From positions 124,001 to 188,000 of the forward strand of contig JAPLFR010000006.1 of NCBI GenBank assembly GCA_026390575.1: DNA of 64,000 bases, given 5' to 3'. Below the pieces are notes generated by a model that saw only the letters and a program-made list of their open reading frames with translations, had not been told where the DNA came from and ran no database searches. This stretch comes from Ignavibacteriales bacterium. GTDB taxonomy: Bacteria; Bacteroidota; Ignavibacteria; UBA10030. Of this stretch, positions 44,770 to 63,403 are shown in pieces (positions within the stretch are counted from its first letter, which is position 1; the number at the start of each line of letters is the position of its first letter). Made by a program: the position numbers and the translations under genes.

Positions 44770-44855
44770 TATTATTTTAAGATAATCGCTTTCTACCTGC
44801 AAAACAAGGTGCCGATGCTTGTATGTGGCGCTCTGTTTCAATATATTTATATGTA

Positions 44856-46595
44856 ATGAATAACACTATTAAGTTTCTTATTTCCCTCACCTCCATCGTG
44901 GGGATTTTTTTTCTCTCAGGCTGCGCCACTTCACAGAAGACTTCTCGATCAACGCCCGCTGATCGCAGAGTCAATTTGCAGGAGCGCAAGATGATTGAAT
45001 TGCAGCGCGATCACGCACTTCAGCATTTTGTCGAAGGTGCCGCGTTGGATGCAAAAGGCTCTTTCGCCGAAGCCATTCTCGAATACCAAGAAGCGCTGCA
45101 ATCAGATCCAAATGCCTCCATCTACTTTGCCATCTCCAGGGATTATTTACTCTTGAACAAGTTCGATCGTGCCGTTGAAGCAGCCGGCGAAGCTGTTCGG
45201 TTAGAACCGCAGAACATTTCGTACCGCGAAAATCTTGGCACAATTTATTTCAATGCCTCTCGAGTAGATTTAGCCATCCATGAATATGAAGAGATTGTCA
45301 GGATTGATTCCAATGCCACTGCCGCATGGATTGCATTAGCAAATCTCTACCAACAAATACGGCCGCTCAAAGCATTGGAGATTTACGAAAAGATGCTTGA
45401 GCGTAACGGTGAGCAGTTGGATATCCTCTTCCAGTGTGCTCAGCTTTATAGTGCGATCGGACGGTTTGATGAAGCTGCGACAAAGTACAAGCGAATGCTT
45501 GAGCTCGATCCAACCAACAAGCCGCTCCAAAAACAACTTGCAGAAACATTTGCGAAAAGCGGAAAATTAGATCAGGCGCGTTCGATCCTTGAAACAATGG
45601 TCGAATCCGATTCTTCCGATGCAGAAGTTGTTGCTACACTCGCAGATGTTTATTTAGATCAGAAACGATTTCAAAATGCGATTGATCTCTATGAAAAATT
45701 ATTAAACCGTGGGATAAAAAACACAGGGATCAAATTACGGATCGCGTTAGGATTCTTTGGGTTAACAGAACACGACTCAACGTTGATTCAAAAAGCACAG
45801 GGATTGTTTGAAGATCTGCACAAGGAAATCCCCAACGATTGGCGACCGTGCTGGTATCTTGGCGCCCTTGCTGCTAACCAGCACAAAGATTCGCTTGCCG
45901 GTACATACTTTGAGCAAGTAACAAAGTTGGAAGAACATCATGCAGACGCATGGTGGTTTTTAGGTTCTTCGTTATTCGAACAAGGGAAATACAATAAACT
46001 GCTTGAAGAGATGGAACAAGCACAGAAGGTGCTTCCCAACGATTTTCGTTTTTATCTGCTTCAAGGACTTGCACTTACGCGCATGGAGAAACAGGAAGAT
46101 GCCGTACCGCCATTAAAGAAAGCGTATATACTGAATCCCAAGGATCTTAACACACTCAGTTCACTTGCCCTCACGTTAGATGGATTACATCGCTATCAGG
46201 AAAGCGACAGTTTGTACGAAGAAGGATTAAAGTTGGATCCGAAGTCTGCGCTGCTTCTCAATAATTATGGATACAGTCTTGCTGAACGCGGACTTCAACT
46301 TAGGCGCGCCTTAGAAATGTCAAAGCAAGCAGTAACTGCTGAACCGGATAATTCCGCTTACCTCGATACCTATGGCTGGATTTTCTTCCGGTTGAAAAAT
46401 TACAAGGATGCCGCTGGGTACATAGAAAAATCCGTCGCAACCGGCAAAGCAAGTGCCGTTGTTCACGAACATCTTGGCGATGTGTATCTCAAACTCGGGC
46501 GGAAAGAACAGGCAATCGAGTTGTGGAAGAAAGCACTGGAGATGGATCCAAAGAACGAGGCGGTAAAAGAAAAAATTCTCCATGGAGCTATCTGA
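44856..46595 (+). CDS. TPR-repeat outer-membrane-type lipoprotein
   Basis: A 579-residue lipoprotein. The signal MNNTIKFLISLTSIVGIFFLSGC has a clean lipobox. The rest is ~13-15 TPR units, for example AEAILEYQEALQSDPNASIYFAIS, FDRAVEAAGEAVRLEPQN, and a late ALEMSKQAVTAEPDNSAYLDTYGW. No ribosome site is evident upstream of ATG 44856; the 12-codon-longer start at 44823 would spoil the signal peptide. The stop overlaps the start of the DUF4292 gene by 1 nt (TGATG), and that gene overlaps the EnvC-like gene, so the three form a coupled envelope operon. The partners are not known. Confidence 0.85.
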   Translation: MNNTIKFLISLTSIVGIFFLSGCATSQKTSRSTPADRRVNLQERKMIELQRDHALQHFVEGAALDAKGSFAEAILEYQEALQSDPNASIYFAISRDYLLLNKFDRAVEAAGEAVRLEPQNISYRENLGTIYFNASRVDLAIHEYEEIVRIDSNATAAWIALANLYQQIRPLKALEIYEKMLERNGEQLDILFQCAQLYSAIGRFDEAATKYKRMLELDPTNKPLQKQLAETFAKSGKLDQARSILETMVESDSSDAEVVATLADVYLDQKRFQNAIDLYEKLLNRGIKNTGIKLRIALGFFGLTEHDSTLIQKAQGLFEDLHKEIPNDWRPCWYLGALAANQHKDSLAGTYFEQVTKLEEHHADAWWFLGSSLFEQGKYNKLLEEMEQAQKVLPNDFRFYLLQGLALTRMEKQEDAVPPLKKAYILNPKDLNTLSSLALTLDGLHRYQESDSLYEEGLKLDPKSALLLNNYGYSLAERGLQLRRALEMSKQAVTAEPDNSAYLDTYGWIFFRLKNYKDAAGYIEKSVATGKASAVVHEHLGDVYLKLGRKEQAIELWKKALEMDPKNEAVKEKILHGAI

Positions 46596-48885: not shown

Positions 48886-48960
48886 CGGGGTGTGGCTCAG
48901 CCCGGTTAGAGCGCCTGCCTTGGGCGCAGGAGGCCGGAGGTTCGAATCCTCTCACCCCGA
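48886..48960 (+). tRNA. tRNA-Pro (anticodon TGG)
   Basis: A 75-nt cloverleaf. The acceptor CGGGGTG pairs with CACCCCG and the discriminator base is A; the anticodon stem CCTGC/GCAGG holds the loop CTTGGGC with anticodon TGG; the T arm is CGGAGGTTCGAATCCTCTC-like. CCA is not encoded (CTT follows). Confidence 0.96.
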
Positions 48961-49153
48961 CTTGTTCTTTTTATTTTAATAGTTTAACAGATTCGCTGAT
49001 ATAACGGCGTTCCTAAGACAACCTCATACTATGCCGTCATTTTTCCAGTTAATAATTTGTTTTATTGACAATAATTTGGAAATTATCTACCATGAGATGC
49101 CGAAGTGGGTTTTATTTGACAGATAATAAAGTCTCCTCGATAAGGTGCGAGTA

Positions 49154-51856
49154 ATGGCAAAAGCTTCAGATTCTCCAAGAAGCGCTGAACAGTTAAAAGA
49201 AGTTGCAATATTCCTCAAGCAAGCTGACAAACTTGTGAGGGAAGGTAACTATACCACCGCACTTGAAGAAATTGCCAAGGCGCGTGGAAGAGATCCAAGG
49301 AATCTGTACGCTCTCGCGTACGAAGAACGTGTACGTTCACTTGTCGCTGCACAAAAAGAGAAAAAGCCAGAGCTCGATGATGGCGCGCCTCCACAGCCAG
49401 TAGAACCGCCGCCAATGTCGGCTACCCTCGAACACATTTCTAATCTTGCCATCGTAGAGGCACAACGATCTGCCGCTGTAGCTGCCAAACAAGAACAAGA
49501 TGTGGCTCTCCGCAAAAAGGAGGATGACGAACGCCGAAGGAATGAAGAACTCCGTCACCAAGCCATCGAATCGAAAATTATCGTCTTTCTTGATCGTTCA
49601 AAGGATTATTTAGGAAAGGGAGATTTTAACCGCGCTCTTGATGAAGTAGCTCGCGCGTACCTGCTGGATCCCGCCAATGACAAAATTCATGCAGCGGAGA
49701 ACCAAATCAGGAAATCGCAAGAAGAAACACGCTTACGTGTTGACCAAGAACGGCTCCAGAAACAACAAGAAGATAACCAGAAGCGCCAGGAGCTTCTCAA
49801 AGCTCAAGTGCTGCGCATGCAACAGGAGAAAGAAGAAAAGCGCCGCAGAGAAGAAGAAGCCCGCAATCAAGCACAACAACAAAAAATTTCCCAATATTTA
49901 AACCGCGCGCAAGAATTCTTGAACAACGGCAGGCTTGACGAAGCATTGAGCGAATTAGCATTTGTCGTGGTGGTGGATCCGCTGAACGAGGAAGTCCTCA
50001 GTTTGGAGCGAAAAATTCGTGACGCACAAGAGCGGGAACAGAGCGAGCAATTGGAGCAGTATCGCCGTCGCGAAGAGGAACAGCGTAAAAAACGTGAAGC
50101 AATTATCACCGCCATTCAGAAACACATAGAAAACGCCGATCTTCTCGCCGGTCAACAAAAGTGGTCAGAGGCATTGCGGGTTATTACGCGAGCGTATGTG
50201 TTGGATCCCATGAACGACGCTTTGCAGGCATGCGAGAAACGCATTCAGACGGCTCAGGAAGAAGCATTGCGCATTGCCGAAGAACAACGTCAAGTATCGG
50301 AAGAATCTGTGCGCCGTCGGCAGGAGGAAGAGCTTCGCCAGCTCGAGCAAGCAGAACGCGAACGTGCTATGCTTGGCGAAAGCGCAGAAACAGAAGCGAA
50401 ACGCCGTGCCGACAAAGAGAAAGTTTTCCTCTACCTTACTAAAGCCCGCGGATATATGTCCGACGGAAGGTACGAAGACGCCCTTGGCGAAGTTGCACTC
50501 GCCTTTATTGTCAATCCGTTTGATGAAGATGTGAAACGGATGGAACATGAAATTATTACATCGCAGAACCAGAAAAAGGCGCAAGAGACTGCAACGGCAG
50601 AAGAAAATGCAGCGGCCATGCCCGCTGATGAAACCGGAGAGCAGATTTTCAAGCATCTTGCAGCAGCATCACAGTACGCCTCTGAATATGAATACAGCAA
50701 AGCGCTTGACGAAGTTGCCAAAGCATTTCTGCTGGATCCATTGAGTGAAGCAGTGCAAAAATATGAATTTCAACTTCAAAACGAATTTCACGAGCACCAG
50801 GAAAAACAACACAAGAAGCAAGAAGAGGAATCTCGGCAAAACGCACTCAATAAGCATAAAACACGCGCGAGGGAATTTCTTGACCGTGAAGCTTTTGATG
50901 AAGCACTTACCGAAGTCATAGAAGGATATTCGTACGATCCGGACAGTTCAGAACTCCGGGCACTTGAACAGCAGATACAGGACGCACATCAACAATGGCA
51001 AGAGAAACTCGCTCAAGAAGAAAAGAATACAAAAATAGAAGACTTTGTCTTAAAAGCGAAAGAGTACCTGAACAAGGAATTATTTGAAGATGCCCTCAAG
51101 ACCATTACCGAAGCGATTGTACTCGATCCGGAACGCGACACACTGAAAGCAATTGAAGCAGAAATCGAAAAGGCACAACAAGCATTTGAAAAACGGAAAC
51201 AGACTGAAGAGAATAATAAAGTCATCCAGAAACATCTTTTCCGCGCAAAGGAGTGCAGAGTTCTCCGAAGTTATGAAGAAGCTCTTTCGGAAATAGATCA
51301 AGCGCTCGTCATTGATCCTTCGCGCGAAGATTTACTCGATCTCAAAAATCAAACACAGCAAGACTTAGCTGATTGGCAATCACAAAAAGATCAGAATGCT
51401 CATCAGGAATCACTCAAACAGCATCTGCGTCAAGCACGTGAGTATCTTGCCAAGAAAGTGTACGATGAAGCGCTGATGGAAATTGCTCTTGGAATGACAA
51501 TTGATCAAGAGAATGCAGAATTAAAAACTCTCGAAGAAGACATCGTGAAAGCTCAAGCTGATGCTGAGATCGCCGAATTAGAAATGACAGAAGGAACAAC
51601 TGATTCAACCATTAAGGATGAAGAACGGGATCAGTTGATATGGATTCATCTGAGGGCGGCAGACGAGCTTCAGAAACAAAAGGAGTTTGCACAAGCGCTT
51701 GATGAGTTGGCAAAAGCTTATGTCATCGACCCATTGAACAAGGAAGTGAAGAAAGCAGAAATTCGAATACGGCAGAACGAGATTCGTCATGCGCAGCAAA
51801 CTGGTCAAACGCTAAAGTTAGTCTACCCGAATGAAAAAGCGATGGGTGGAAGCTGA
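49154..51856 (+). CDS. Cytosolic protein of eleven TPR-like/coiled-coil repeats
   Basis: A ~900-residue soluble protein with no signal peptide or membrane segment. It contains eleven copies of a ~55-residue helical repeat with the consensus A.(E/D)(Y/F)L....(Y/F)(D/E)EAL.E(I/V)A.A...DP.N..(V/A)..LE..I..AQ, at residues ~15-70, 140-195, 245-298, 320-375, 423-478, 500-553, 567-618, 630-683, 692-745, 755-805 and 828-880. Between them are Gln/Glu/Arg-rich coiled-coil linkers. ATG 49154 is used (AAGG 8 nt upstream); an in-frame GTG lies at 49145. The next gene, 27 bp on, encodes a TonB-like protein with the same repeat. The protein looks like a long scaffold; its function is unknown. Confidence 0.85.
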   Translation: MAKASDSPRSAEQLKEVAIFLKQADKLVREGNYTTALEEIAKARGRDPRNLYALAYEERVRSLVAAQKEKKPELDDGAPPQPVEPPPMSATLEHISNLAIVEAQRSAAVAAKQEQDVALRKKEDDERRRNEELRHQAIESKIIVFLDRSKDYLGKGDFNRALDEVARAYLLDPANDKIHAAENQIRKSQEETRLRVDQERLQKQQEDNQKRQELLKAQVLRMQQEKEEKRRREEEARNQAQQQKISQYLNRAQEFLNNGRLDEALSELAFVVVVDPLNEEVLSLERKIRDAQEREQSEQLEQYRRREEEQRKKREAIITAIQKHIENADLLAGQQKWSEALRVITRAYVLDPMNDALQACEKRIQTAQEEALRIAEEQRQVSEESVRRRQEEELRQLEQAERERAMLGESAETEAKRRADKEKVFLYLTKARGYMSDGRYEDALGEVALAFIVNPFDEDVKRMEHEIITSQNQKKAQETATAEENAAAMPADETGEQIFKHLAAASQYASEYEYSKALDEVAKAFLLDPLSEAVQKYEFQLQNEFHEHQEKQHKKQEEESRQNALNKHKTRAREFLDREAFDEALTEVIEGYSYDPDSSELRALEQQIQDAHQQWQEKLAQEEKNTKIEDFVLKAKEYLNKELFEDALKTITEAIVLDPERDTLKAIEAEIEKAQQAFEKRKQTEENNKVIQKHLFRAKECRVLRSYEEALSEIDQALVIDPSREDLLDLKNQTQQDLADWQSQKDQNAHQESLKQHLRQAREYLAKKVYDEALMEIALGMTIDQENAELKTLEEDIVKAQADAEIAELEMTEGTTDSTIKDEERDQLIWIHLRAADELQKQKEFAQALDELAKAYVIDPLNKEVKKAEIRIRQNEIRHAQQTGQTLKLVYPNEKAMGGS

Positions 51857-51883
51857 TAAAAGCACTCACAACGAGACGGCAGC

Positions 51884-53194
51884 ATGGAACCGCAAGAAAA
51901 AATAGATACACAGCAATTTATCATCGACCGATTGCAGGATATTCACCGTAAAGCAGAAGCAAGTAATTTTGCCGAAGCTTTGACGGCTATGAAAGAGGTA
52001 AAGGCAGCGGATGCGAAGAACATATACCTCATCGCTATTGAAAAACAAATTGCTAAATTAAACGATCCTTCACTTCAAGCAGAAAACCGCACAGCAATAA
52101 TCAAATCGCTTCCCCCCATGATTGATCGCGCTATCAGCGATGTCCAACGCCGTGCAGTTGTTCCAAAAGAAGATTCACAAAAAGTACAAAAAGAAGCGGC
52201 GCTTGAAAAATTAAAAAGCCAGTACTTTCAGCGTTCCGATGACTATGTAGAGAAGAAGGAATATCAGCGCGCCCTTGAAGAGATCCGGCGCATTTATATC
52301 ATCGAACCGGGAAGTGTTGTTGCAAAAGAATATGAGAAAAAAATTGAGCAACTCGCCGCTCTGCAAATACGTGGAGAGTCTCCGGCACCACAGGAAGAAG
52401 TAGTAAAGGAAAGCAAGACCACCATTCCTATTGCTGAAGCACGAGAAGAAGAAGATAAACCTGCCGCTAAATCTAATAAACCAAAGATACTCATTATGGC
52501 AGCGGCAGCAGTTGTTATTCTCTTAGTGGGAACTTGGTTTATTCTTTCAAAAAATTCCGCAAGCAAACCGAGTGAGCAACTAACAGTGCAGCAGCCTCCT
52601 GTCTCGCAGGAAAGTGCAACACCGACACTACCCACGACGACGACTTCTACTCCCCAATCTGGAAACGAACCTGCTCCAATCGCGGAGAAATCGAAAGAGC
52701 CGGCGAAAGTTCAAAAGACAACACCCGAGATAAAAAAACCTGTTACTTCAGAGCAAAAACCTGTCCAGACACCTGCAACAACGCAGCCAATACGCACTCA
52801 GACACAACCGGCCCAACAGCCATCACAACAGCCAGTTGTGAACACTCCATCAACGCAACCACCGGCTCAACAACAGACCAAACCAGCAGAAAGCACACCT
52901 GCACCAATGCCATTTGTTGCCATTGAATCTCAACCGGAATTTATCCATCGTGAACCGGCAGTATATCCAGAAATTGCAAAAAAAATGGGACTCCAGGGCA
53001 GGGTAACTGTTGAAGTAACTATCGATGCACAGGGTAAACCAATTCAAGCAAAGGTTGTTAAAAGTGCCAGCGATGTTTTTAATGAAGCCGCGGTTGAAGC
53101 TGTTATGAAGTACACTTTTAAACCAGCCATGATGTCTACAGGTCCTGTAAGTTCAAAAATCATGATACCAATTGACTTTCGCATGTCACGTTGA
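51884..53194 (+). CDS. TonB-like protein with cytosolic repeat domain
   Basis: A 436-residue protein with unusual topology. Residues 1-150 hold two repeats of the same type as the upstream protein (FAEALTAMKEVKAADAKNIYLIAIEKQI and YQRALEEIRRIYIIEPGSVVAKEYEKKI). The single membrane helix comes only at ~201-222 (ILIMAAAAVVILLVGTWFIL). A Pro/Gln/Thr-rich periplasmic linker (~225-345) and a TonB C-terminal domain (~353-434: YPEIAKKMGLQGRVTVEVTIDAQGKPIQAKVVKS... FKPAMM) follow. Ordinary TonB has only a short N-terminal tail before its helix. No exbB or exbD is adjacent. It is probably co-transcribed with the repeat scaffold gene. Confidence 0.88.
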   Translation: MEPQEKIDTQQFIIDRLQDIHRKAEASNFAEALTAMKEVKAADAKNIYLIAIEKQIAKLNDPSLQAENRTAIIKSLPPMIDRAISDVQRRAVVPKEDSQKVQKEAALEKLKSQYFQRSDDYVEKKEYQRALEEIRRIYIIEPGSVVAKEYEKKIEQLAALQIRGESPAPQEEVVKESKTTIPIAEAREEEDKPAAKSNKPKILIMAAAAVVILLVGTWFILSKNSASKPSEQLTVQQPPVSQESATPTLPTTTTSTPQSGNEPAPIAEKSKEPAKVQKTTPEIKKPVTSEQKPVQTPATTQPIRTQTQPAQQPSQQPVVNTPSTQPPAQQQTKPAESTPAPMPFVAIESQPEFIHREPAVYPEIAKKMGLQGRVTVEVTIDAQGKPIQAKVVKSASDVFNEAAVEAVMKYTFKPAMMSTGPVSSKIMIPIDFRMSR

Positions 53195-53273: not shown

Positions 53274-56200
53274 CTATTTGTCTATCTCTTTTGTTCCAAA
53301 TTTATTCTTCCACAATTGTCCGGCCTTCTCTGCCCACTCATCAAGCAACGAGTACACTGTCGGTAGAACAACAAGCGTTAAAAATGTAGAGATGGTGAGA
53401 CCAAAAATGATTGTGACCGCCAGTGGTCTCCAAAATTCCGCACTCTCTGCACCAAAGATAAAATGAAATTCACGCCAGTCAAAATCAATACCCGTTGCCA
53501 TTGGTACAAGTCCAAGAACAGTGGCAACTGCAGTTAAAAGCACAGGCCGCAAACGAATACGTCCTGCTTCAAGCAACGCATCATTGAGTGACATTCCCCC
53601 TTCGCCATGTTTGTGCTTAACAAAATCCAATAACACAATGCCATTTCGAACAACGATACCTGCAAGAGCTACAACTCCAACTCCGGTCATAATCACACTG
53701 GCCGGAGTGCGTGTAATGACAAGCCCAAACATAACACCAATAAGCGAGAGAATAACAGAAATCATAATGACAAAAGGCACTTTCATCGAATTAAATTCTG
53801 CCACCATGATCAGGAAAACCAACAGCAGTGTAATGATAAATGCATTCCCCAGAAAAGCTGCGGCCTTTTGTTGCTCTTCTTCTGAACCAGTCAGTTTGAC
53901 TCCGTACCCTGCCGGAAGATCCATGTTCGAGAGGCGTGCTTTCACTTCTTTGATTACCTCAGATTGTACGCGACCCTCTACATCGCCGCTGACAGTGATG
54001 ACCCGTTTCTGATCTTTACGCCTAATGTCTGTTACTGATGTTGTACGCTTTATTTCGGCAAGCGATGTCAATGGCAGCGAAAGCAACTGTCCGCGACGAT
54101 TCATAAACGTAATACGCAGATTCTCTAAATCATTCGGTGACTGGCGTTGATCCTCCTGCAAGCGAACACGTATTTTGTACTCATCCTCGCCAACACGGTA
54201 CTTGGATGCTTCCACACCAGCAATTGCAGCGCGAATCGTGGAAGCAATCTGGCCGGTGCTCGTGTAGAAAAGTCCCGCTTTTTCACGATCAACAATAATT
54301 TCTACTTCTGGCCTGCCGGTATTATAGTCATCTTTCAAATCGACAAGGCCTTTTATATCCTTAATCTTTTCACGTATCGAACGACTGAGTGAGGCCAATT
54401 GCGCATAGTCTTCACCGGATACTTCTATATTCACCGGTGAACCAACCGGCGGTCCCATTTGTTGCTTTACTATGCGCAAGGTAGCACCCGCATTTCCGAT
54501 CGTCGTCTTACGGACCTCTTCAATCGTTTGAAACGTGTTTTGTTTCCGCAGTTTTTTTTCAAAGAAATTAATAGCAATGCGGCCTTTGTTCGGAGTCCCC
54601 TGCCCGCCCATATCAAATATGTCATCAGAAGTACCAACGCTTGTTGCAAAATATTCAATATCCTTTATGTGCGGTATTTGACTGATACGCTCTTCCAAGA
54701 TTTCAGAGATGCCGTTGGTAACATTCAAGGAAGTACCGGCGGGAGTTTCAATGGTCACGTTTATTTGCGACGGTTCTGTTGTCGGAAAAAATTCAACACC
54801 TTTGTTGAATAATCCGAAAAGAATCATGATGAATACAAGCAGTCCGAACGAACCGCCAATAGTAAGCCATTTACGTTCCAATGTCCAGCGAAGGATTTTC
54901 ACGTATTCCTTCTGGAACCACGGAAAGACAACTGTATCTACTTCATGGTACAAACTATTAAACACATTGTATTTTTTGTACCAATGCGGATGTTCGCGAT
55001 CCTCTTTTGCCTTTTTGATTTCACGTTTGTAGTTGATCCATTGAGCGCTTTGCACCGGACTGATGACATATGCAACGAAGAGTGAAGCACTTAAGGTGAT
55101 AATAAGTGTAATCGGGAAAAATTTCATAAAGCTGCCTACAATCCCTGGCCAGAACATCAAAGGTAAGAATGCAGACAATGTGGTAATGGTTGATGTAAGA
55201 ACAGGCACAAAAACTTCTCCTGCCGCAGCTTTTGCTGCAACAATCGGGTGTTCGCCATATTCCTGCTGGTGCCGATACGTATTTTCAATAACGACAATCG
55301 CATCATCTACCAAAATACCAAGCACCATCACGAGTGAAAATAGTACCACCATATTCAACGTAATTCCGAGTGTCGACAATACCACAAATCCAACAAACAT
55401 CGATAATGGAATTGCAGTTGAGATCAACATTGCATTTTTAAAGCCAAAGAACATGAACAGAGACATAATCACGAGAAACATGCCGCTCAAGATACTATTT
55501 TCCAATTCTTTTACCATACGAATAACAAAGACCGATTGATCGTTGGAAATATCGAGTTTGATACCAGCCGGTAGTTTTGTTTGCTCTTCCTTTGCAATTC
55601 GCTTTACCTCCTCTGAGATTCGAATAAGATTTTCACCGGCTCGTTTGCGTACTGCAAGTGATACTACTTCTGTCCCATTTAAACGTGCATGCGTTTGTCT
55701 ATCTTCAAAGGAATAATCCACTTTTGCTACGTCGCGTAAATAGATCGGTTTACCACTCTGATTTTTTATAACAATATCTTCAAGGGGTTTTACTTCTTTG
55801 AATTCGCCGGGTACACGCACCGTTAGAGTCTTTTCCCTGGTATCGATTGTCCCACCAGGGATAGATAGATTTTCTGCACGGATTGCATTTGCCACATCAT
55901 CAAAGCTAATTTGATAGGCGTTCATCCTATAGACGTCAACATTCACCTGTACTTCTGGTACTAAACCGCCGGTAACATCTGCACTAATAACGCCCGATAT
56001 TCCTTCAATTCTGTCACGGATATCGTCGGCAATTTTCTTTAGCCGTGCTAATCCAACCTCGCCACCGACGTTGACGAACATAATCGGAAATTCACTGATG
56101 TTGATTTCCGAAATAACGGGATCAAGAATATCGGTTGGAAGCTGCGGACGTGTTGAATTTACCTTATCACGCACACGGCGTAATGCTTCATCAATATCAA

Positions 56201-56501
56201 TACCGGTGTTAAATTCCACACGAATCGTCGAAAGGCCTTCTTTTGAGACGGATGTTACTTGTTTGAGATCCTTTAAGCCTTTGAGATCACGTTCAAGCGG
56301 TTGTGTGATGAGCCCTTCGATATCAACTGGCGATACACCGATGTACGGTGTCGCCACAATCACAAGTGGAATGGTGATGTCAGGTGCCGCTTCGCGTGGA
56401 AGCCCTTGATAGGCACTCCAGCCGAACATGACAATCAGCACCATTAGAATATAGACGACGATTTTATTATCTACAGCCATACTCCAGATTTTCATTTTCA
56501 T
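53274..56501 (-). CDS. RND-family efflux permease (operon 1)
   Basis: A ~1075-residue inner-membrane pump with 12 helices and two large periplasmic loops. It has the RND helix-4 motif GILVDDAIVVIENTYRH with the two Asp of the proton relay. The N-terminus PREAAPDITIPLVIVATPYIGVSPVDIEG and the loop sequences place it in the HAE1-like/hydrophobe-exporter branch rather than CusA-type, since no clear Met triad is visible. ATG 56501 and 56495 are both possible; the second is 8 nt from GGAG. It follows the adaptor gene by 8 bp, so adaptor, pump and TolC form one operon. Substrate unknown. Confidence 0.92.
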   Translation of the reverse strand: MKMKIWSMAVDNKIVVYILMVLIVMFGWSAYQGLPREAAPDITIPLVIVATPYIGVSPVDIEGLITQPLERDLKGLKDLKQVTSVSKEGLSTIRVEFNTGIDIDEALRRVRDKVNSTRPQLPTDILDPVISEINISEFPIMFVNVGGEVGLARLKKIADDIRDRIEGISGVISADVTGGLVPEVQVNVDVYRMNAYQISFDDVANAIRAENLSIPGGTIDTREKTLTVRVPGEFKEVKPLEDIVIKNQSGKPIYLRDVAKVDYSFEDRQTHARLNGTEVVSLAVRKRAGENLIRISEEVKRIAKEEQTKLPAGIKLDISNDQSVFVIRMVKELENSILSGMFLVIMSLFMFFGFKNAMLISTAIPLSMFVGFVVLSTLGITLNMVVLFSLVMVLGILVDDAIVVIENTYRHQQEYGEHPIVAAKAAAGEVFVPVLTSTITTLSAFLPLMFWPGIVGSFMKFFPITLIITLSASLFVAYVISPVQSAQWINYKREIKKAKEDREHPHWYKKYNVFNSLYHEVDTVVFPWFQKEYVKILRWTLERKWLTIGGSFGLLVFIMILFGLFNKGVEFFPTTEPSQINVTIETPAGTSLNVTNGISEILEERISQIPHIKDIEYFATSVGTSDDIFDMGGQGTPNKGRIAINFFEKKLRKQNTFQTIEEVRKTTIGNAGATLRIVKQQMGPPVGSPVNIEVSGEDYAQLASLSRSIREKIKDIKGLVDLKDDYNTGRPEVEIIVDREKAGLFYTSTGQIASTIRAAIAGVEASKYRVGEDEYKIRVRLQEDQRQSPNDLENLRITFMNRRGQLLSLPLTSLAEIKRTTSVTDIRRKDQKRVITVSGDVEGRVQSEVIKEVKARLSNMDLPAGYGVKLTGSEEEQQKAAAFLGNAFIITLLLVFLIMVAEFNSMKVPFVIMISVILSLIGVMFGLVITRTPASVIMTGVGVVALAGIVVRNGIVLLDFVKHKHGEGGMSLNDALLEAGRIRLRPVLLTAVATVLGLVPMATGIDFDWREFHFIFGAESAEFWRPLAVTIIFGLTISTFLTLVVLPTVYSLLDEWAEKAGQLWKNKFGTKEIDK

Positions 56502-56509
56502 TGCTCCGT

Positions 56510-57562
56510 CTATTTTACGACATTGACTGTTGTACCATCGACGAGTTTTTGATAGCCGGTGACAACGAGATGATCACCTATCTTCAAACCATCCAACACT
56601 TCCATCATCATTCCCTGGCGGCCGCCGAGTTTTAAACGCCGCTCTTGTGCCTTACCGTCTTGTTCTACATAGACAATAATACGATCACGATCTACCAGCT
56701 GCACGATGTTTTCACTCACGAGAATTGCATTATTCTTTGCCTCGCGAAGTAATTTTACCTTTGCTACCATTTCTGGTTTGAGCTTTCGGAATGGATTCGA
56801 TAGAATGAGTTCTACCTGCATTGTTCGGTTTGCTGCAGATACTGCTGAACTGACAAACGACACCCTTCCTCTGAGTGTATCGCCTGGCAATGCATCGAAT
56901 GTCACAACGGCCGGTATGCCAAGAGGAAGTGTGCCTGAATATAACTCCGGTACTTCTGCCTGAATTTTCACTTTCGAATTATTGACGATACGGACAATCG
57001 GTACTCCGGGCGGCGCGAATTCTCCCTCGTTCATGAGGTTGCCCATTGGAGTATTCTCTACAACACCGTCGATCGTGCTGCGAATCTGAGTCCGTTCCCA
57101 GCGTGCTTTCATTAAGTCAGCGTTGGCTTTTGCAGCATCGCGGCCATATTGGAAATTCTTCATCTGAAGGTCGCTAATACCCTGTTGTTCAAATACCTTC
57201 TGCTGTTTCTCAACATTTAAATCCGCCATACGGTATTGCGCTTCAGCAGCATCGTACCCGGCCTTGATCACTTCATCTTTCAATGTTACTATCAGATCGC
57301 CTTTTTTTACATGCTGGCCTTTTTGAGCTATCCATTCTTTGATTACTCCACCCTCTTCAGGACTAATATTGACATCCTCAAAAGCCTTCACAGTTCCTGC
57401 TACTTGGATAGCATCTACAAGACGCGTCGGTTTAATGATTTCAATTTTTACGTCGACCGGCTGAATCTTGAGCGAGGTATTTTCATCGACCTTTTTGCAG
57501 GAGAAAAACACCAAACCGGTACAAAGCACTGGAACCGTTACTATTCTTGCTATATTGTTCAT
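56510..57562 (-). CDS. RND efflux periplasmic adaptor lipoprotein (operon 1)
   Basis: A 350-residue membrane-fusion protein. The signal (VTVPVLCTGLVFFSC) ends in a lipobox-like FFSC. The barrel-sandwich/lipoyl halves (GVIKEWIAQKGQHVKKGDLIVTL, then STIDGVVENTPMGNLMNEGEFAPPGVPIVRI) flank a helical hairpin at ~95-140, and the membrane-proximal domain ends in the VVTGYQKLVDGTTVNVVK motif. It links the RND pump to TolC. Confidence 0.93.
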   Translation of the reverse strand: MNNIARIVTVPVLCTGLVFFSCKKVDENTSLKIQPVDVKIEIIKPTRLVDAIQVAGTVKAFEDVNISPEEGGVIKEWIAQKGQHVKKGDLIVTLKDEVIKAGYDAAEAQYRMADLNVEKQQKVFEQQGISDLQMKNFQYGRDAAKANADLMKARWERTQIRSTIDGVVENTPMGNLMNEGEFAPPGVPIVRIVNNSKVKIQAEVPELYSGTLPLGIPAVVTFDALPGDTLRGRVSFVSSAVSAANRTMQVELILSNPFRKLKPEMVAKVKLLREAKNNAILVSENIVQLVDRDRIIVYVEQDGKAQERRLKLGGRQGMMMEVLDGLKIGDHLVVTGYQKLVDGTTVNVVK

Positions 57563-57587
57563 TGAAGTATTCCTTCTACGGTGGGTT

Positions 57588-59009
57588 CTATTCTTCAGTT
57601 TCTATCGCATAACTGGGGAGGTGACCGATGAGTTGATCCAGCTCGGCCGAAGCGACGAGGTAATCATAAATTGCTTGAATACGGTTTACTTTCGCTTGTG
57701 TTAACGCAAGTTGTGCATCGTTCACTTCCAATTGCGTAGCAGCGCTCGAGAGAAAACGCGTTGTGACAATCTTGTAGCCGCGCTCTGCCATCTCAACGGT
57801 TTTGTCCTGTGCTTCAACACGCTTTCGTGCCTGCTGTAAATTGCTCTTTACCGAATGCACACCTGTATATAAGTTCCGTTCTACAGTCGTCCGTTGTTCT
57901 TCACTCTTCCGTTGTTCTAACTGTGCCTGTTCAACCTTGGAATATGTTTGAAGTCCCTGGAACAGGCTGAGTGAAAAAACTAATCCTACCTGAGAAGACT
58001 TGTAAAAATCGTTTGTTGAGAAATTAAATCGGTCGTTGATCGCCGAATAAGAATACGATCCAAACATGGCAATTGTCGGCAAATAATTTGATCTCTCTGC
58101 ATTAATCACGGCTCCATTTAATTCTATCTGACGTTTTGCCGCCGTTAATCCCGGATTGGTCTCCAGAACAAGTGATTCCGCTTCTGACACTATTAAATCG
58201 TCAACCGGCACAAACTTGAGATCACCGGAGAGCACGATATTCTCATTGTTCGAAAGTCCGATCGTATTTCGAAGATTATCAAGTGCAAGATTATAATTAT
58301 TCTCGCTTTGAATGACCGCAGGGCGAAGATTTTCTACTCCCACCGAGGCCCGCAGTTCATCATACTCTGAAAGAATTCCCTGACTCAGCATGAGCCGCAC
58401 ATTCTTTTGATTATCCTCTGCATTTTGCAGGCTCGAGTGCATCAATTCCTGAGCTTCATGTGCAAGCAATGTTTGGTAGTACGCTTTTCTCACCTTGGTC
58501 ACTGTCTCGATATGTTTCGCCTGATATAAATCACGCGCAAGGTGCGAATACACATGCGCCGCTCCGACTCCAACAAATACAGCACCATTAAAAATAACCT
58601 GTTTAAAATTCAGTGATGCAGTTGCCGAATAATCAGGCGACATAGACCCCGGCAATTGTATTAACTCGCCGGTCGGTTTTGGATAATGCGTTGAATCGCC
58701 CATAAGTTTATACAACGGGTATAAAAGATAATCGGGGAAATATGTGATCGGTTTATCGATCAGGTGAACAAAATTTGCGGATAGGTCGATTGAAGGCATC
58801 GCATATCCCCACGCTTCGAGGACACGGGCATCCGATTTTTTCACTTCCAGACGCGCACTTTCCAAATCCGGATTGTGTTTTATTGCAAAGCGCACAGCTT
58901 CTTCTAATGTCAGGCGCCGTGCTGTCGTATCCTGCCCCCGCGAACGCTCCATAAAAACCATGAGCATCAATGGCACAAGTAAGAGCAGTACTGTTCGTTT
59001 TCGGACCAT
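57588..59009 (-). CDS. TolC-family outer-membrane channel (operon 1)
   Basis: A 473-residue protein with signal peptide (VLLLLVPLMLMVFMERSRG). It contains two TolC repeats: LTLEEAVRFAIKHNPDLESARLEVKKSD near residue 33 and a second with NPGLTAAKRQIELNGAVINAERSNYLP. Strands and long helices match the OEP family. It is the first gene of the TolC-adaptor-RND operon. No promoter is clear in the 59010-59142 spacer beyond the terminator of the other operon. Confidence 0.92.
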   Translation of the reverse strand: MVRKRTVLLLLVPLMLMVFMERSRGQDTTARRLTLEEAVRFAIKHNPDLESARLEVKKSDARVLEAWGYAMPSIDLSANFVHLIDKPITYFPDYLLYPLYKLMGDSTHYPKPTGELIQLPGSMSPDYSATASLNFKQVIFNGAVFVGVGAAHVYSHLARDLYQAKHIETVTKVRKAYYQTLLAHEAQELMHSSLQNAEDNQKNVRLMLSQGILSEYDELRASVGVENLRPAVIQSENNYNLALDNLRNTIGLSNNENIVLSGDLKFVPVDDLIVSEAESLVLETNPGLTAAKRQIELNGAVINAERSNYLPTIAMFGSYSYSAINDRFNFSTNDFYKSSQVGLVFSLSLFQGLQTYSKVEQAQLEQRKSEEQRTTVERNLYTGVHSVKSNLQQARKRVEAQDKTVEMAERGYKIVTTRFLSSAATQLEVNDAQLALTQAKVNRIQAIYDYLVASAELDQLIGHLPSYAIETEE

Positions 59010-59142: not shown

Positions 59143-62100
59143 TTATTTCACATCAGCATATTCTATTTCGCCGTCTGATGTGACGACAGTGCGTCTTTTT
59201 CTTTTGTCAAAAAGAGATGAAGGTTTCTTAAAGAATCCAGGAATCTTTTCCTTCCATTCATCCACTTTCATATAGACCACAGGAACAACGATCAGCGTCA
59301 GGAAAAGCGAGCTTGTCAATCCGCCGATGATCGCCCATGCCAGACCAGACTTCCATTCTGAGCCGGACGCTGTCGATAATGCAATCGGCATCATACCAAA
59401 AATCATAGTAAATGTCGTCATCAAAATCGGACGCAGCCGTGATTTCGCCGCTTCGAGCAGCGCATCGTACACCGATAATCCTTGTTCCAGCCTTGTCTGA
59501 TTCGTCCTATCAACAAGGAGAATTGCATTCTTAGTCACAAGGCCGATCAGCATAATAATGCCGAGGATTGTAAAGATGCTGAGTGATTTTCCTGAAACAG
59601 CCAGTGCCACCATTGCGCCGACCATTGCGAGTGGAATCGCAAAAAGAACCACAAAGGGATAGACATACGAATCGTACAACGCCACCATAATCAGGTATAC
59701 AAAGAGAATCCCGATTAACATAGCAAGAAAAAGATCGATGAAGCTATCGCCGCGCATCTTTTCCATACCGAGGTACGAAAGTGAGATTCCGGTTGGAAGC
59801 TGTACACCCGCAATTTTATTTTTAAAATCCTGCATAATCGTACCTGTCGGCCTGCCCAGTGTTTGACCCGAGACATAGACGACACCAATGCGGTCTCTCC
59901 GTTCCAACTTTGTTGGTCCGGAAGACATGAACACATTCGCAAATTGTTTCAGTTCTATTAGCTGGCCTCGGTTATTCATAAAAGTGATACTGCCGATACT
60001 TTCTGTCTGCGATCGATTGTATTTATCGAACTGTATGCGAATGTCATATTCATTTGTACCGTCACGGAATTTCGAATCGTTGTCTCCTGTCAATGCCACG
60101 CGCAATGTTGTACCGACATCCGCAACGGATAAACCGAGCTGCGCCAATTTTGCACGATCGATCTCAACTTGCATTTCCGGTTTTCCCGATTCCGAGGAAA
60201 GACGAACGTCTGTAGTGCCTTCCACAGAATTCAGGATCTGCTTTACTTGCGCTGCGGCCTGCATGATGAGTTTATTGTCCGTACCGCTTATACCTATTTG
60301 AATCGCAGCTTGATCGGAAGATCCAAAGATACCGATCGGATTGACGTAGACCTTTGTTCCCGGAATCTCGCGCACCTTCGTTTTGATTTCCTCACCCACC
60401 TGCGAAGTGGTTTTCTTGCGATTTTCCTTCGGAATAAGTGCCACATTAAACTGTACCAGGTTATTGCTTGACAGAGTAAGAGCACCACTTTCTTGTGCAC
60501 CAACTCCTGTGAAAACTTTCTTTATTTCCGGCATTTGAGATAATATCCGTTCTATCTGTAGCGCTGTTTGGTTGGTCTGCTCCACTGAGGAACCGGGCAT
60601 CAATTCAACAGACACACCAAACTCACCTCGATCCGACTGCGGCATGAATTCATTCCCGATGAGTCCGAAGGCAGGAATCAATAGAGCTAAAATAAATACG
60701 CCGGTTGCTCCGAGAGCAACTTTTGCCTTGTTGACAAGAGACCATTTGAGCATCTTCTGATAAACATCAGAGAACCTGTGATAGAACCGTTCAAATGCGA
60801 GCGCAAATCTTCCCAGTAAGGTTCTATCTGTCAATCGTTCCAATTTCGCGAAACGCGATGCGAGCGTCGGCGTAATAGTAAATGACACAAAGAGACTCAT
60901 TAAGGTTGCACCAACAACAACAAGAGCGTATTGCCGCATAATTTGCCCGACAATACCGGAGACTAACGACAACGGCAAGAACACGACCACATCCACCATG
61001 GTGATGGAGAGCGCAGCTAAACCGATTTCATTTCTTCCGCGTATTGCTGCCGTACGGGATTCTTCTCCTTTTTCAATATGATGATATATATTTTCCAGAA
61101 CGACGATCGAGTCGTCGACCAGGATGCCAATCACGAGCGACAACCCGAGCAGCGTCATCAAGTTCATAGAAAAATTCAACGCATACATAATCACAAATGT
61201 TGCGATCAAGGAAGAAGGAATAGCGACAAGCACGATCAGTGAATTCCGAATGCTGTGCAAGAAGAGCAGCATCACGATCGCAACCATCATAATTGCAAGC
61301 ATGAGATCTTTTTTCACTGCATTTGCGGAGTCGAGTGTAAAGGTTGATGTGTCCTGCGCTATATCAAAAATGATTCCCTGTTCCTTATACTCAGCCTGAA
61401 TCTTTTGTAATTCCTCCCGCACGAGTTTACTGACGCTCACCGCATTGGCATCGGATTGCTTGACAACCTGAATACCAACAGAGGTCAGTCCGTTGACACG
61501 GTTCATTTGTTCATATTCTTTGATTCCATCCTGCACTTCTGCAACATCCCGCAAGCGAATATCTCCGCCCTGACGTGATCGCCCCACAACAAGATCCCTG
61601 AGATCTTCGATAGTTTTGAATTTCCCTGCGATGCGAACCACAAACTGTGCATCCTCATCCTTTATCTTTCCCGTCGGAAAATCCATATTTGCGGACCGCA
61701 CCGCCTGAACAATCTGCAGAATAGACATCCCATACGCACGCACCTTTTGAGCGTCCATGTTTACTTTGATCTCGCGTTCTTCTCCGCCCGTAAGAGAGAC
61801 CTGGGCAACACCGGCAATTTTGGATATCCGCGGCTGCACACGGTCTGTTAAAAACTGAAAGAATTCCCGAGAATCCATTTGACTGGTCACACCCATACGC
61901 AAGACCGGAATTTCATCAAAGGCAATCTTGGATACAACCGGTGCTTTTGCATCTGTCGGAAGCTTAGCGAGAATCGCATTCACCTTGCGCGATGCGTCCT
62001 GCACCACATTGTCGATGTCTGCGTCCTGTTTGAATTCAATGATCACGAGCGACATACTTTCAAACGACCTGGAGCTGACAGCGTCAATTTTATCGATTCC

Positions 62101-62316
62101 CGATACAGCATCTTCAATGATTTTGGAAACGTTATTTTCCACTTCGTATGGAGATGCACCGGGGTAAATCGTCTGCACCACGACCACGGGAATGGACATC
62201 TTCGGAAGCAGCTCATATTTCAACTGGAAATAGCTGAATAATCCCAGCACAGCTATGACCGTAAAGACTACCACCACAAGTGTGGGACGTTTTATAGATA
62301 ATTCAGTAATCGTCAT
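59143..62316 (-). CDS. RND-family efflux permease (operon 2)
   Basis: A 1057-residue pump with 12 helices. The N-terminus ITELSIKRPTLVVVVFTVIAVLGLFSYFQL and the proton-relay helix GILVDDSIVVLENIYHH are intact, as is the FxxPL-type QLKYELLPKMSIPVVVVQTIYPGASPYEVE. The C-terminal tail (KRKRRTVVTSDGEIEYADVK) is hydrophilic. It differs strongly from the operon 1 pump in its periplasmic loops, so the two likely serve different substrates. It follows its adaptor by 22 bp. Confidence 0.93.
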   Translation of the reverse strand: MTITELSIKRPTLVVVVFTVIAVLGLFSYFQLKYELLPKMSIPVVVVQTIYPGASPYEVENNVSKIIEDAVSGIDKIDAVSSRSFESMSLVIIEFKQDADIDNVVQDASRKVNAILAKLPTDAKAPVVSKIAFDEIPVLRMGVTSQMDSREFFQFLTDRVQPRISKIAGVAQVSLTGGEEREIKVNMDAQKVRAYGMSILQIVQAVRSANMDFPTGKIKDEDAQFVVRIAGKFKTIEDLRDLVVGRSRQGGDIRLRDVAEVQDGIKEYEQMNRVNGLTSVGIQVVKQSDANAVSVSKLVREELQKIQAEYKEQGIIFDIAQDTSTFTLDSANAVKKDLMLAIMMVAIVMLLFLHSIRNSLIVLVAIPSSLIATFVIMYALNFSMNLMTLLGLSLVIGILVDDSIVVLENIYHHIEKGEESRTAAIRGRNEIGLAALSITMVDVVVFLPLSLVSGIVGQIMRQYALVVVGATLMSLFVSFTITPTLASRFAKLERLTDRTLLGRFALAFERFYHRFSDVYQKMLKWSLVNKAKVALGATGVFILALLIPAFGLIGNEFMPQSDRGEFGVSVELMPGSSVEQTNQTALQIERILSQMPEIKKVFTGVGAQESGALTLSSNNLVQFNVALIPKENRKKTTSQVGEEIKTKVREIPGTKVYVNPIGIFGSSDQAAIQIGISGTDNKLIMQAAAQVKQILNSVEGTTDVRLSSESGKPEMQVEIDRAKLAQLGLSVADVGTTLRVALTGDNDSKFRDGTNEYDIRIQFDKYNRSQTESIGSITFMNNRGQLIELKQFANVFMSSGPTKLERRDRIGVVYVSGQTLGRPTGTIMQDFKNKIAGVQLPTGISLSYLGMEKMRGDSFIDLFLAMLIGILFVYLIMVALYDSYVYPFVVLFAIPLAMVGAMVALAVSGKSLSIFTILGIIMLIGLVTKNAILLVDRTNQTRLEQGLSVYDALLEAAKSRLRPILMTTFTMIFGMMPIALSTASGSEWKSGLAWAIIGGLTSSLFLTLIVVPVVYMKVDEWKEKIPGFFKKPSSLFDKRKRRTVVTSDGEIEYADVK

Positions 62317-62338
62317 TGTTCTATTCCTTTATCTCTCA

Positions 62339-63403
62339 TTACTTTCGGACAATCACTGGAGCGTTATCACTTAAATTATTTTGACCGTTCACCACGATCT
62401 GTTCACCTTCCTGCAAACCGCTCAGGACTTCAATGTCCGTCCCTAATTCTTTTCCCGTGACCACTGAACGGAGGTTTGCCACATTATTCTTGATCACATA
62501 CAGCGCTGCATTTTTTACACTTCCAACAATGGATTCACGGGGAATCACAATAGCGGCGCCGGATATTTTTGGAGTGAATCTGACTCTGCCGAACATCCCG
62601 GCTTTGATTTGCTGCTTGGAATTATTCAACACGACTTCCACGGGGTACGTATGACCTTCATCACCCTTTGATGAAATACTAAAAATGGATCCCGTAAACA
62701 CCGAATTCGGAAACACATCCGTTGTCACTTCAACCTTCTCACCGACCTTCAACCGGATGACATCTTTTTCTGCAACGCTCACTTTCACCTTCAGCCGGGA
62801 GATATCCACCACATTCGCAACGAGCGTTGCCTGCGGCGCACCCATCACCATGGAGCCAATATTGACATACCGTGCTGTTACAATACCTGAGATAGGTGTC
62901 GTAATTTTCGTATCGGTAAACTGGCGCCGGGCGACGATATACTGTGCTTCCGCCGATTGATAACTCCAGCGCGCCTGTTCAATCTGCGAATCAGAGATGG
63001 ACCCTTCTTTATAAAGAGCCTCATATCGTTCGAGGTCTTTCTTTGCCTTCTCATACGAGACGTTCGCTGCTTTATAGGCAGCTTCCTTCAACTCGCTGTC
63101 TACTTCAACCAGTACCGCTCCGGCTTTTTTATAGTCACCAACTTCTGCATCGATTTTCACAACCCGCCCCGAGGTTTCTGAGACCACGGCAACATCATTG
63201 TATGCTACAATGGTACCGACCTGAGAAAAGCTGTCCGTCATATCTTTCTTAGCCGCTGTGATTACCGAGACAGAATAGGATGTGGATATTGTTTTTACTG
63301 CACTGTTTTGACTATCGCTTCTTGCTTTGTTGCACGAATAGATGCCAAAGACCAATGCTATCAGCGTTATGCCTAATAAGAAATATTTTATTGTCGTGTT
63401 CAT
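62339..63403 (-). CDS. RND efflux periplasmic adaptor lipoprotein (operon 2)
   Basis: A 354-residue adaptor with an N-terminal signal ending in a lipobox-like sequence (LIALVFGIYSC). The lipoyl halves (GRVVKIDAEVGDYKKAGAVLVEVD; TTPISGIVTARYVNIGSMVMG) flank a short helical hairpin (AANVSYEKAKKDLERYEALYKEGSISDSQIEQARW). The C-terminal GLQEGEQIVVNGQNNLSDNAPVIVRK closes the membrane-proximal domain. Normal length. Confidence 0.93.
   Translation of the reverse strand: MNTTIKYFLLGITLIALVFGIYSCNKARSDSQNSAVKTISTSYSVSVITAAKKDMTDSFSQVGTIVAYNDVAVVSETSGRVVKIDAEVGDYKKAGAVLVEVDSELKEAAYKAANVSYEKAKKDLERYEALYKEGSISDSQIEQARWSYQSAEAQYIVARRQFTDTKITTPISGIVTARYVNIGSMVMGAPQATLVANVVDISRLKVKVSVAEKDVIRLKVGEKVEVTTDVFPNSVFTGSIFSISSKGDEGHTYPVEVVLNNSKQQIKAGMFGRVRFTPKISGAAIVIPRESIVGSVKNAALYVIKNNVANLRSVVTGKELGTDIEVLSGLQEGEQIVVNGQNNLSDNAPVIVRK

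Follow-up and report, generated by a model that had tools for sequence, protein, structure and literature searches.

The 64,000-nucleotide stretch of an Ignavibacteriales bacterium genome analysed here (positions 124,001 to 188,000 of contig JAPLFR010000006.1, assembly GCA_026390575.1; hereafter the window) holds two adjacent genes, one for a soluble protein predicted to consist of tetratricopeptide repeat (TPR)-like hairpins (the scaffold) and one for a membrane protein with a TonB domain (the partner), separated by 27 bp from stop codon to ATG (Table 1). An initial annotation of the locus had placed both open reading frames (ORFs) at these positions and had read the partner as about 200 cytosolic residues with two repeats, with the membrane helix, linker and TonB domain behind them; each of these descriptions is borne out. 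The sequence AAGG sits 8 nt ahead of the scaffold ATG, and inspection of the 900 residues by eye found no membrane helix in the scaffold.

Table 1. Features of the scaffold-partner locus (window positions) and of related proteins elsewhere
Feature	Residues	Position	Strand	Basis or remark
Scaffold gene, P0001, soluble TPR protein	900 aa	49154..51856	+	ORF, ATG at 49154; Pfam TPR_2/TPR_14
Scaffold repeat 1	22-70	49217..49363	+	class common to response regulators and partner repeat 1
Scaffold repeat 2	148-193	49595..49732	+	closest scaffold repeat to partner repeat 2
Scaffold repeat 3	250-297	49901..50044	+	
Scaffold repeat 4	327-372	50132..50269	+	
Scaffold repeat 5	429-477	50438..50584	+	
Scaffold repeat 6	504-551	50663..50806	+	
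Scaffold repeat 7	570-618	50861..51007	+	
Scaffold repeat 8	634-680	51053..51193	+	
Scaffold repeat 9	697-744	51242..51385	+	
Scaffold repeat 10	760-806	51431..51571	+	
Scaffold repeat 11	835-880	51656..51793	+	
Scaffold C-terminal tail motif LKLVY, candidate docking peptide	887-891	51812..51826	+	inside stretch 884-900 with pLDDT <50
Partner gene, P0002, bitopic TonB-domain protein	436 aa	51884..53194	+	ORF, ATG at 51884; Pfam
Partner repeat 1	17-60	51932..52063	+	model helices 2-25, 29-42, 48-59
Partner repeat 2	115-158	52226..52357	+	profile, alignment, model
Partner membrane helix, without histidine	201-223	52484..52552	+	model and sequence
Partner Pro/Gln/Thr-rich linker, mostly disordered in model	224-350	52553..52933	+	pLDDT <50 at 226-280, 284-325, 328-334
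Partner TonB C-terminal domain	351-436	52934..53191	+	PF03544 at 359-433, E 1e-20; TonB2 PDB sequence match 2.8e-7; Foldseek
Repeat-receiver proteins L068-L072, same genome (G000)		C16:14779, C1:153245, C6:313812, C16:556461, C16:558016		
Membrane protein after TonB-less partner, genus g26	178 aa	L084 8026-8562, L085 7434-7970, L087 6253-6789		

The scaffold as a whole matches the Pfam families TPR_2 (8.4e-10) and TPR_14 (4e-8). The earlier count of eleven repeats stands, while the proposed repeat length of about 55 residues does not, as each hairpin spans about 45 residues and the units start 63-126 residues apart. In the AlphaFold model of the scaffold (mean predicted local distance difference test score, pLDDT, 81; predicted template modelling score, pTM, 0.29), eleven short helices of 12-14 residues, one per hairpin unit, fall in the same places, with helices of up to 82 residues between them. 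The best Foldseek matches of this model were TPR proteins (2y4u, 5e-7), yet with template modelling (TM) scores of 0.19 or less and root-mean-square deviations of 43.7-72.6 Å among the 50 matches listed, all generic TPR proteins. In the partner model, seven helices lie within residues 2-164, mostly with pLDDT >90, and a further helix coincides with the predicted membrane segment. A profile made from the cytosolic domain of the partner finds the designed TPR protein 3kd7_A at 8.9e-7. Profile and fold taken together indicate that the scaffold and the cytosolic domain of the partner are both probably composed of TPR-type hairpins.

The C-terminus of the partner has a TonB fold. TonB_C (PF03544) is its sole strong Pfam match, and Foldseek with this region returned TonB C-terminal domains as best matches (6i97_D, E 3.5e-5, TM-score on target 0.85); with the TonB2 match in the PDB, these results confirm the TonB-like identity first proposed from the sequence. 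No signal peptide was seen ahead of the membrane helix, which suggests an N-in topology with the N-terminal part expected to lie in the cytosol. Pfam gave no FHA match in either protein. PADLOC returned no defence match for the scaffold, and its PD-T4-6 match for the partner (1.3e-5, 22.9 bits, residues 165-335) was judged to reflect low-complexity linker, so that a role in anti-phage defence was set aside.

Scaffold and partner are related through their repeats. A profile built from the eleven scaffold units, which scores those units highly by construction, detects partner repeat 2 at 26.9 bits, compared with at most 7.8 when residues 1-200 of the partner were shuffled 2000 times, and does not detect partner repeat 1. 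The same profile matches repeats in all five other proteins of the genome that were supplied to the search and no other window ORF in the searched set, including a TPR protein at 44823-46595. Among the eleven scaffold repeats, partner repeat 1 aligns best with scaffold repeat 1 (10 of 44 identities; ungapped BLOSUM score 54, next 32), a score reached by 0 of 20000 shuffles, and partner repeat 2 is closest to scaffold repeat 2. Chance similarity is ruled out by these shuffle controls. The initial annotation had considered the two first repeats to be especially alike, which is correct within the scaffold's eleven, but both are closer to a repeat of a response regulator encoded in the same genome. 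For scaffold repeat 1 this is the repeat of a 369-residue protein, identical at 24 of 44 positions (score 125); for partner repeat 1 the identities are 13 of 44 (score 66). Partner repeat 2 also scores higher with response-regulator repeats than with scaffold repeat 2, and average-linkage clustering places partner repeat 1 outside all other repeats.

The order of the repeats is shared as well. The cytosolic-domain profile of the partner (model positions 4-158) aligns collinearly with scaffold residues 15-186, at E 1e-14 here and 5.7e-20 in genome G008. A tree built from 38 partner domains and the N-termini of 26 scaffolds has a single branch (99/97) that divides the two sets; several of its branches are long, 16 of the 61 inner ones are open, and the root between the sets was the analyst's choice. 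The cytosolic domain of the partner and the first two repeats of the scaffold read as old duplicates of one two-repeat unit, in agreement with the duplication originally put forward.

The two genes are inherited together. Across 98 genomes of the order, 31 of the 47 places with a partner domain (E 1e-25 or better) have a scaffold match directly upstream on the same strand, with a gap of 118 bp or less. The other 16 places comprise four second copies of the partner upstream of a scaffold-partner pair (G036, G350, G351 and G358), one reversed gene order (G363:C201, L160), one partner at a contig end (G372), one broken copy (G354:C68, whose second piece was left out of the 47) and nine places in genomes without a recognised scaffold (G057, G060, G352, G353 and G354). 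By the analyst's classing of the genomes, 29 have both genes, five the partner only (the five just named), five the scaffold only (G012, G045, G367, G368 and G373) and 59 neither; this classing counts as absent the partial partner pieces of G356 and the weak, coil-only scaffold matches of G057, G352, G353, G359, G360 and G362, and accepts a 50-residue match at the end of a contig as presence in G002. In a phylum-wide sample, 11 of 296 genomes match at 1e-5, all within the order, and five of these matches are weak (E 6e-11 to 2e-6) and resemble the scores of receiver or scaffold repeats. A sample of the class gave matches in 39 of 391 genomes at 1e-15, five of them outside the order, and in family f54 of this class a scaffold of 875 residues adjoins a TonB-domain partner of 418 residues with a gap of 16 bp (G380, L174), an order of genes repeated in G389 and G396. 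The pairing recurs in families f1, f5, f6 and f54, and genome G361 carries four scaffold-partner pairs, two of them in tandem (L156, L157 and L158). Genes lying far apart in relatives had been named at the outset as grounds for abandoning the pairing; the neighbourhoods instead show recurrent adjacency, and the pairing can be regarded with high confidence as well supported.

Two further arrangements were seen in these neighbourhoods. Upstream of the f54 pair (L174, 4972-6555) lie what by eye appear to be an extracytoplasmic function sigma factor (197 residues) and an anti-sigma-like protein (308 residues), followed by an 877-residue protein, and the same order is present in L175. Genome G381 (L179, 9265-10470) encodes, with no scaffold beside it, a 401-residue variant in which a single repeat precedes the membrane helix, linker and TonB domain.

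The end of the scaffold is associated with the presence of the partner. A short tail of the pattern L[KT][LM][VI]Y occurs in 32 of 35 scaffolds that adjoin a partner (25/28 and 7/7 in two sets), in none of 19 scaffolds without an adjacent partner (0/12, 0/6 and 0/1), including the first scaffolds of the f5 loci, and in none of 561 non-scaffold ORFs. Fisher's test of 32/35 against 0/18 gives 2e-11, a significance that is overstated because orthologues are not independent. The count omits four repeat and coil proteins of another type (L184, L185, L186 and L190, one of them cut by a contig end) and, for G377 (L196) and G373, first scaffolds that are cut or broken, leaves the G002 fragment uncounted and includes L155 as partner-adjacent though its scaffold and partner sit at two contig ends. 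TPR domains bind C-terminal peptides, such as the MEEVD of Hsp90, and Foldseek with the partner gave weak matches that include complexes of TPR domains with C-terminal peptides. The tail is a candidate docking peptide that may bind the cytosolic domain of the partner. It is unlikely that the pair represents two generic TPR proteins co-inherited in an operon that form no complex with each other; TPRs are widespread, the repeat is found in many other proteins of the order and five genomes keep a partner without a recognised scaffold, but such co-inheritance fits poorly with a pairing that recurs in four families, up to four times in one genome, and with a tail whose presence tracks partner adjacency.

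The TonB half of the partner is repeatedly absent. In family f5 the partner is 155-161 residues long and ends right after repeat 2, with no membrane helix in any of the four f5 rows tested. Partners of genus g26 (L084, L085 and L087, unmatched in BLASTP) lack the TonB domain but have a membrane helix, found by helix test in L084 and by eye in L085 and L087, and the first partner copy in G036 likewise has no TonB domain and keeps the helix (by eye). The tree joins the six soluble partners in a single clade (100/99); when rooted on the scaffold side, it places this clade within the TonB-domain partners, and loss of the TonB half is then the most economical interpretation. The TonB half would then be dispensable and lost in several lineages, with the cytosolic domain and, in most genomes, the scaffold retained. 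A frame error hiding the TonB half in f5 is unlikely, as in L079 the next ORF, on the opposite strand, ends 10 bp behind the 160-residue partner and all seven partner-bearing genomes of g21 have open frames of just 171-180 residues at this place. In g26 the TonB-less partner is followed, with an overlap or within 6 bp, by a protein with two membrane helices by eye (Table 1); the idea, also by eye, that the L084 copy is a kinase remnant was dropped when Pfam gave no kinase domain and MENTAL alone at 1e-3.

TonB and TolA use an SHLS motif of the membrane helix to bind their motors (available excerpt of PMC12204202). The motor histidine is absent from nearly all membrane-bound partners: 21 of 25 aligned partners have the membrane helix, 20 of these 21 have no histidine in or next to it, and the single histidine of the remaining one sits where the helix ends. 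Among 12 ordinary TonBs of the order, 11 carry a histidine in the corresponding region (the exception is L027). A stricter spacing of the motor-binding motif is Ser-X3-His, which is met by only one of the 12 ordinary TonBs, and the bare histidine was therefore used as the test. The 12 derive from 20 loci, from which 14 rows passed the filters and two (L006, 206 residues; L033, 175 residues) proved not to be TonBs; seven loci gave no row, including L003, L004, L005 and L007 of the genome studied here, and neighbouring exbB and exbD genes were examined for L002 only. The genome contains one MotA_ExbB match and two ExbD matches, adjacent to one another and beside a 243-residue TonB with the histidine. 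BLASTP, with a working positive control, found no ExbB or ExbD relative among 637 ORFs, the longest non-overlapping ones in the window and in the neighbourhoods retrieved; a short motor gene beneath a longer chance ORF could escape this selection.

The initial annotation had envisaged mechanical or regulatory input through TonB and had proposed a test for exbB and exbD partners elsewhere in the genome. Mechanical input is not supported, given the helices without histidine, the lack of motor genes nearby, the repeated loss of the TonB half and the position of the single ExbB/ExbD set beside its own TonB, and as far as sequence tells, the partner is not a motor-driven TonB, though it could still use this distant set. 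An ordinary nutrient-uptake TonB with an acquired cytosolic regulatory extension would agree with the C-terminal domain in both sequence and fold, but is very unlikely with the motor histidine missing, an exbB-exbD-exbD-tonB set present elsewhere in the genome and soluble f5 partners that would be unable to do such a job. A force-transducing envelope machine like Agl-Glt, in which the partner would couple a distant motor to an outer-membrane part and the scaffold would organise the cytoplasmic side, is quite improbable for much the same reasons: 20 of 21 membrane-bound partners have no histidine in the helix region, the 637 ORFs hold no ExbB/ExbD relatives and the sole MotA_ExbB match lies beside its own TonB, and several lineages have partners without a TonB domain or membrane helix, all of which has to be set against the genuine TonB fold, the ExbB/ExbD set elsewhere in the genome and a Myxococcus cluster that combines the topology of GltG with a giant cytosolic TPR protein (available excerpt of PMC3169522).

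The repeats and the neighbouring genes in other families connect the scaffold to two-component systems. Five proteins of the same genome (369-435 residues; Table 1) carry one or two repeats and end in a receiver domain, with a middle region between the two parts and with Response_reg at 3e-13 to 6e-22 in the four that were scanned, and five of six scanned relatives from other genera also contain Response_reg. The middle helical region of these proteins gives weak matches only (ENT, TerB and Tic110). Relatives of this repeat-receiver family occur in many genera of the order.

Two-component genes directly precede the scaffolds in f5. All eight f5 loci with both scaffold genes and upstream sequence (G035, G059, G378, G369, G372, G365, G373 and G374) share the order of a membrane histidine kinase (HK1), a double receiver (REC2), scaffold a and scaffold b. 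HK1 is preceded by a small receiver gene in 7/7 loci inspected for one and by a second kinase (HK2) in 6/7, and G372 and G365 have an additional regulator gene in between. A soluble partner follows the scaffolds in six of the eight loci. In G372 it lies on the other side of a contig break, and in G373, whose scaffold b is itself cut short, none was found. The order HK1, REC2 and scaffold is also present in G361 of family f6 (L182) and in the G377 fragment (L196). Pfam recognised two Response_reg stretches in REC2 and one in the small receiver gene; the names HK1 and HK2 come from printed sequences read by eye and BLAST of these genes to each other, without a family search, and the genes of G059 were recognised by position and sequence start. 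These results point to a link with kinases and receivers, by gene order or by shared domain, outside the window itself. A structural envelope tether or cell-organisation scaffold (for polarity, division or a surface appendage) with no signalling role would suit the long helices with TPR-like kinks of the model, whose overall shape is uncertain, and a TonB-type domain reaching across the envelope, but it would leave unexplained the kinase and receiver genes beside scaffolds in f5 and G361 and the fusion of the same repeat to receiver domains in other proteins, and is for these reasons distinctly improbable.

The combined evidence is tentatively read, at a probability of roughly 45%, as a lineage-restricted TPR scaffold linked to two-component systems and accompanied by a non-motorised TonB-type periplasmic tether or sensor. 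The scaffold would form a cytoplasmic rod of eleven TPR-like hairpins joined by long charged helices and would gather response regulators and related proteins bearing the same N-terminal repeat. The two-repeat cytosolic domain of the partner would bind the scaffold, most likely through the L[KT][LM][VI]Y tail, and the partner's helix, linker and TonB-type domain would link the cytosolic complex to a periplasmic or outer-membrane component, with the partner acting as a tether or sensor and not as an ExbB/ExbD-driven force transducer. Physical binding of the two proteins, the tail as docking site, a signalling role and the direction of information flow are what we infer from patterns that the sequences do show: joint inheritance of the genes, homologous domains, the association of tail and partner, the TonB fold, the missing motor histidine, the recurrent lack of a TonB half and the two-component neighbours in f5. 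A more specific version, which is possible though doubtful, is a transenvelope signalling conduit, in which the motorless TonB-type domain would be the sensing end in the periplasm or outer membrane and the TPR domain of the partner would plug, via the LKLVY-type tail, into a scaffold assembling response regulators with the same repeat; one lineage would have lost the TonB half, with its scaffolds following a membrane histidine kinase and a double receiver.

It should be noted that several observations weigh against the reading of a scaffold with a tether or sensor. With a pTM of 0.29, the overall shape of the scaffold is not fixed by the model, and TPRs are generic repeats. The partner-domain profile gave one collinear match in 13 of 26 scaffold N-termini, and the other 13 were matched in pieces. 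No immediate neighbour of the pair in the window looks like a kinase or a receiver, so the two-component link rests on the shared repeats and on the gene order of other families. The five genomes with a partner and no recognised scaffold belong here as well. For the tail, the original pattern with LK was relaxed to L[KT] once the data had been seen (the strict LK form is present in 30/35), the 19 unpaired scaffolds amount to about seven lineages and are not independent events, many of them are shorter or diverged at the end, which is enough alone to remove the tail, and three paired scaffolds lack it (two in G361 and one in G363).

Should the proposed reading be correct, TonB-type domains would also serve as passive transenvelope sensors or tethers, beyond proton-driven force transduction, and one bacterial lineage would own a scaffold system for two-component proteins. 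The association of tail and partner narrows testing to one short peptide and one 165-residue domain.

In the window, a tRNA-Pro (TGG) lies at 48886-48961, about 190 bp upstream of the scaffold gene. On the minus strand, 53274-59009 holds a resistance-nodulation-division (RND)-type efflux set of ORFs of 1075, 350 and 473 residues (named by eye); the sister genomes G001, G003, G004 and G005 lack it in the interval from the pair to the next RND set (59143-63403).

Several known systems share features with the pair. The partner resembles the TonB of the canonical ExbB-ExbD-TonB system in the sequence and fold of its C-terminus, its disordered linker and its single membrane helix, but has about 200 cytosolic residues with two TPR-like repeats in place of a short N-terminus, no histidine in the helix, no exbB or exbD nearby and relatives in which the TonB half is absent; identity with a canonical TonB is ruled out by the missing histidine and the genome's own tonB elsewhere. 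The response regulators of the order share the N-terminal repeat, which in the closest of them has the 24 of 44 identities to scaffold repeat 1 given above, but have a middle region and then a receiver after their one or two repeats, and neither an eleven-repeat rod nor a membrane part. In the vWA force-transducer clusters, as described in the available excerpt of PMC12204202, a TPR gene adjoins a transducer of TonB-like topology, as it does in the pair, but the transducer has a vWA domain instead of a TonB domain, many have the SHLS motif and motor genes are adjacent.

A search limited to open-licence PMC papers found no description of the pair itself. The original statement that no described system has this layout was nonetheless too strong, as GltG and GltI of Myxococcus are similar. 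In the available excerpt of PMC3169522, GltG combines an FHA domain in the cytosol with a membrane helix and a TonB domain, and a two-hybrid assay shows it interacting with the AglR motor; GltI, encoded in the same cluster, is a TPR protein of 4132 residues with no signal peptide or membrane helix. A bitopic PF03544 protein clustered with a very large cytosolic TPR protein is also the layout of the pair. The two differ in that the cytosolic domain is FHA in GltG and TPR in the partner, that further Glt genes are clustered in Myxococcus and that GltG interacts with a motor while the 637 ORFs of the window and neighbourhoods hold no ExbB/ExbD relatives that would point to an AglRQS-type motor near the pair. 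The likeness is one of layout alone, with homology compared no further than the TPR and TonB domains. Because the motor link fails here, the pair is not classed with Glt and is best described as a variant of a known layout.

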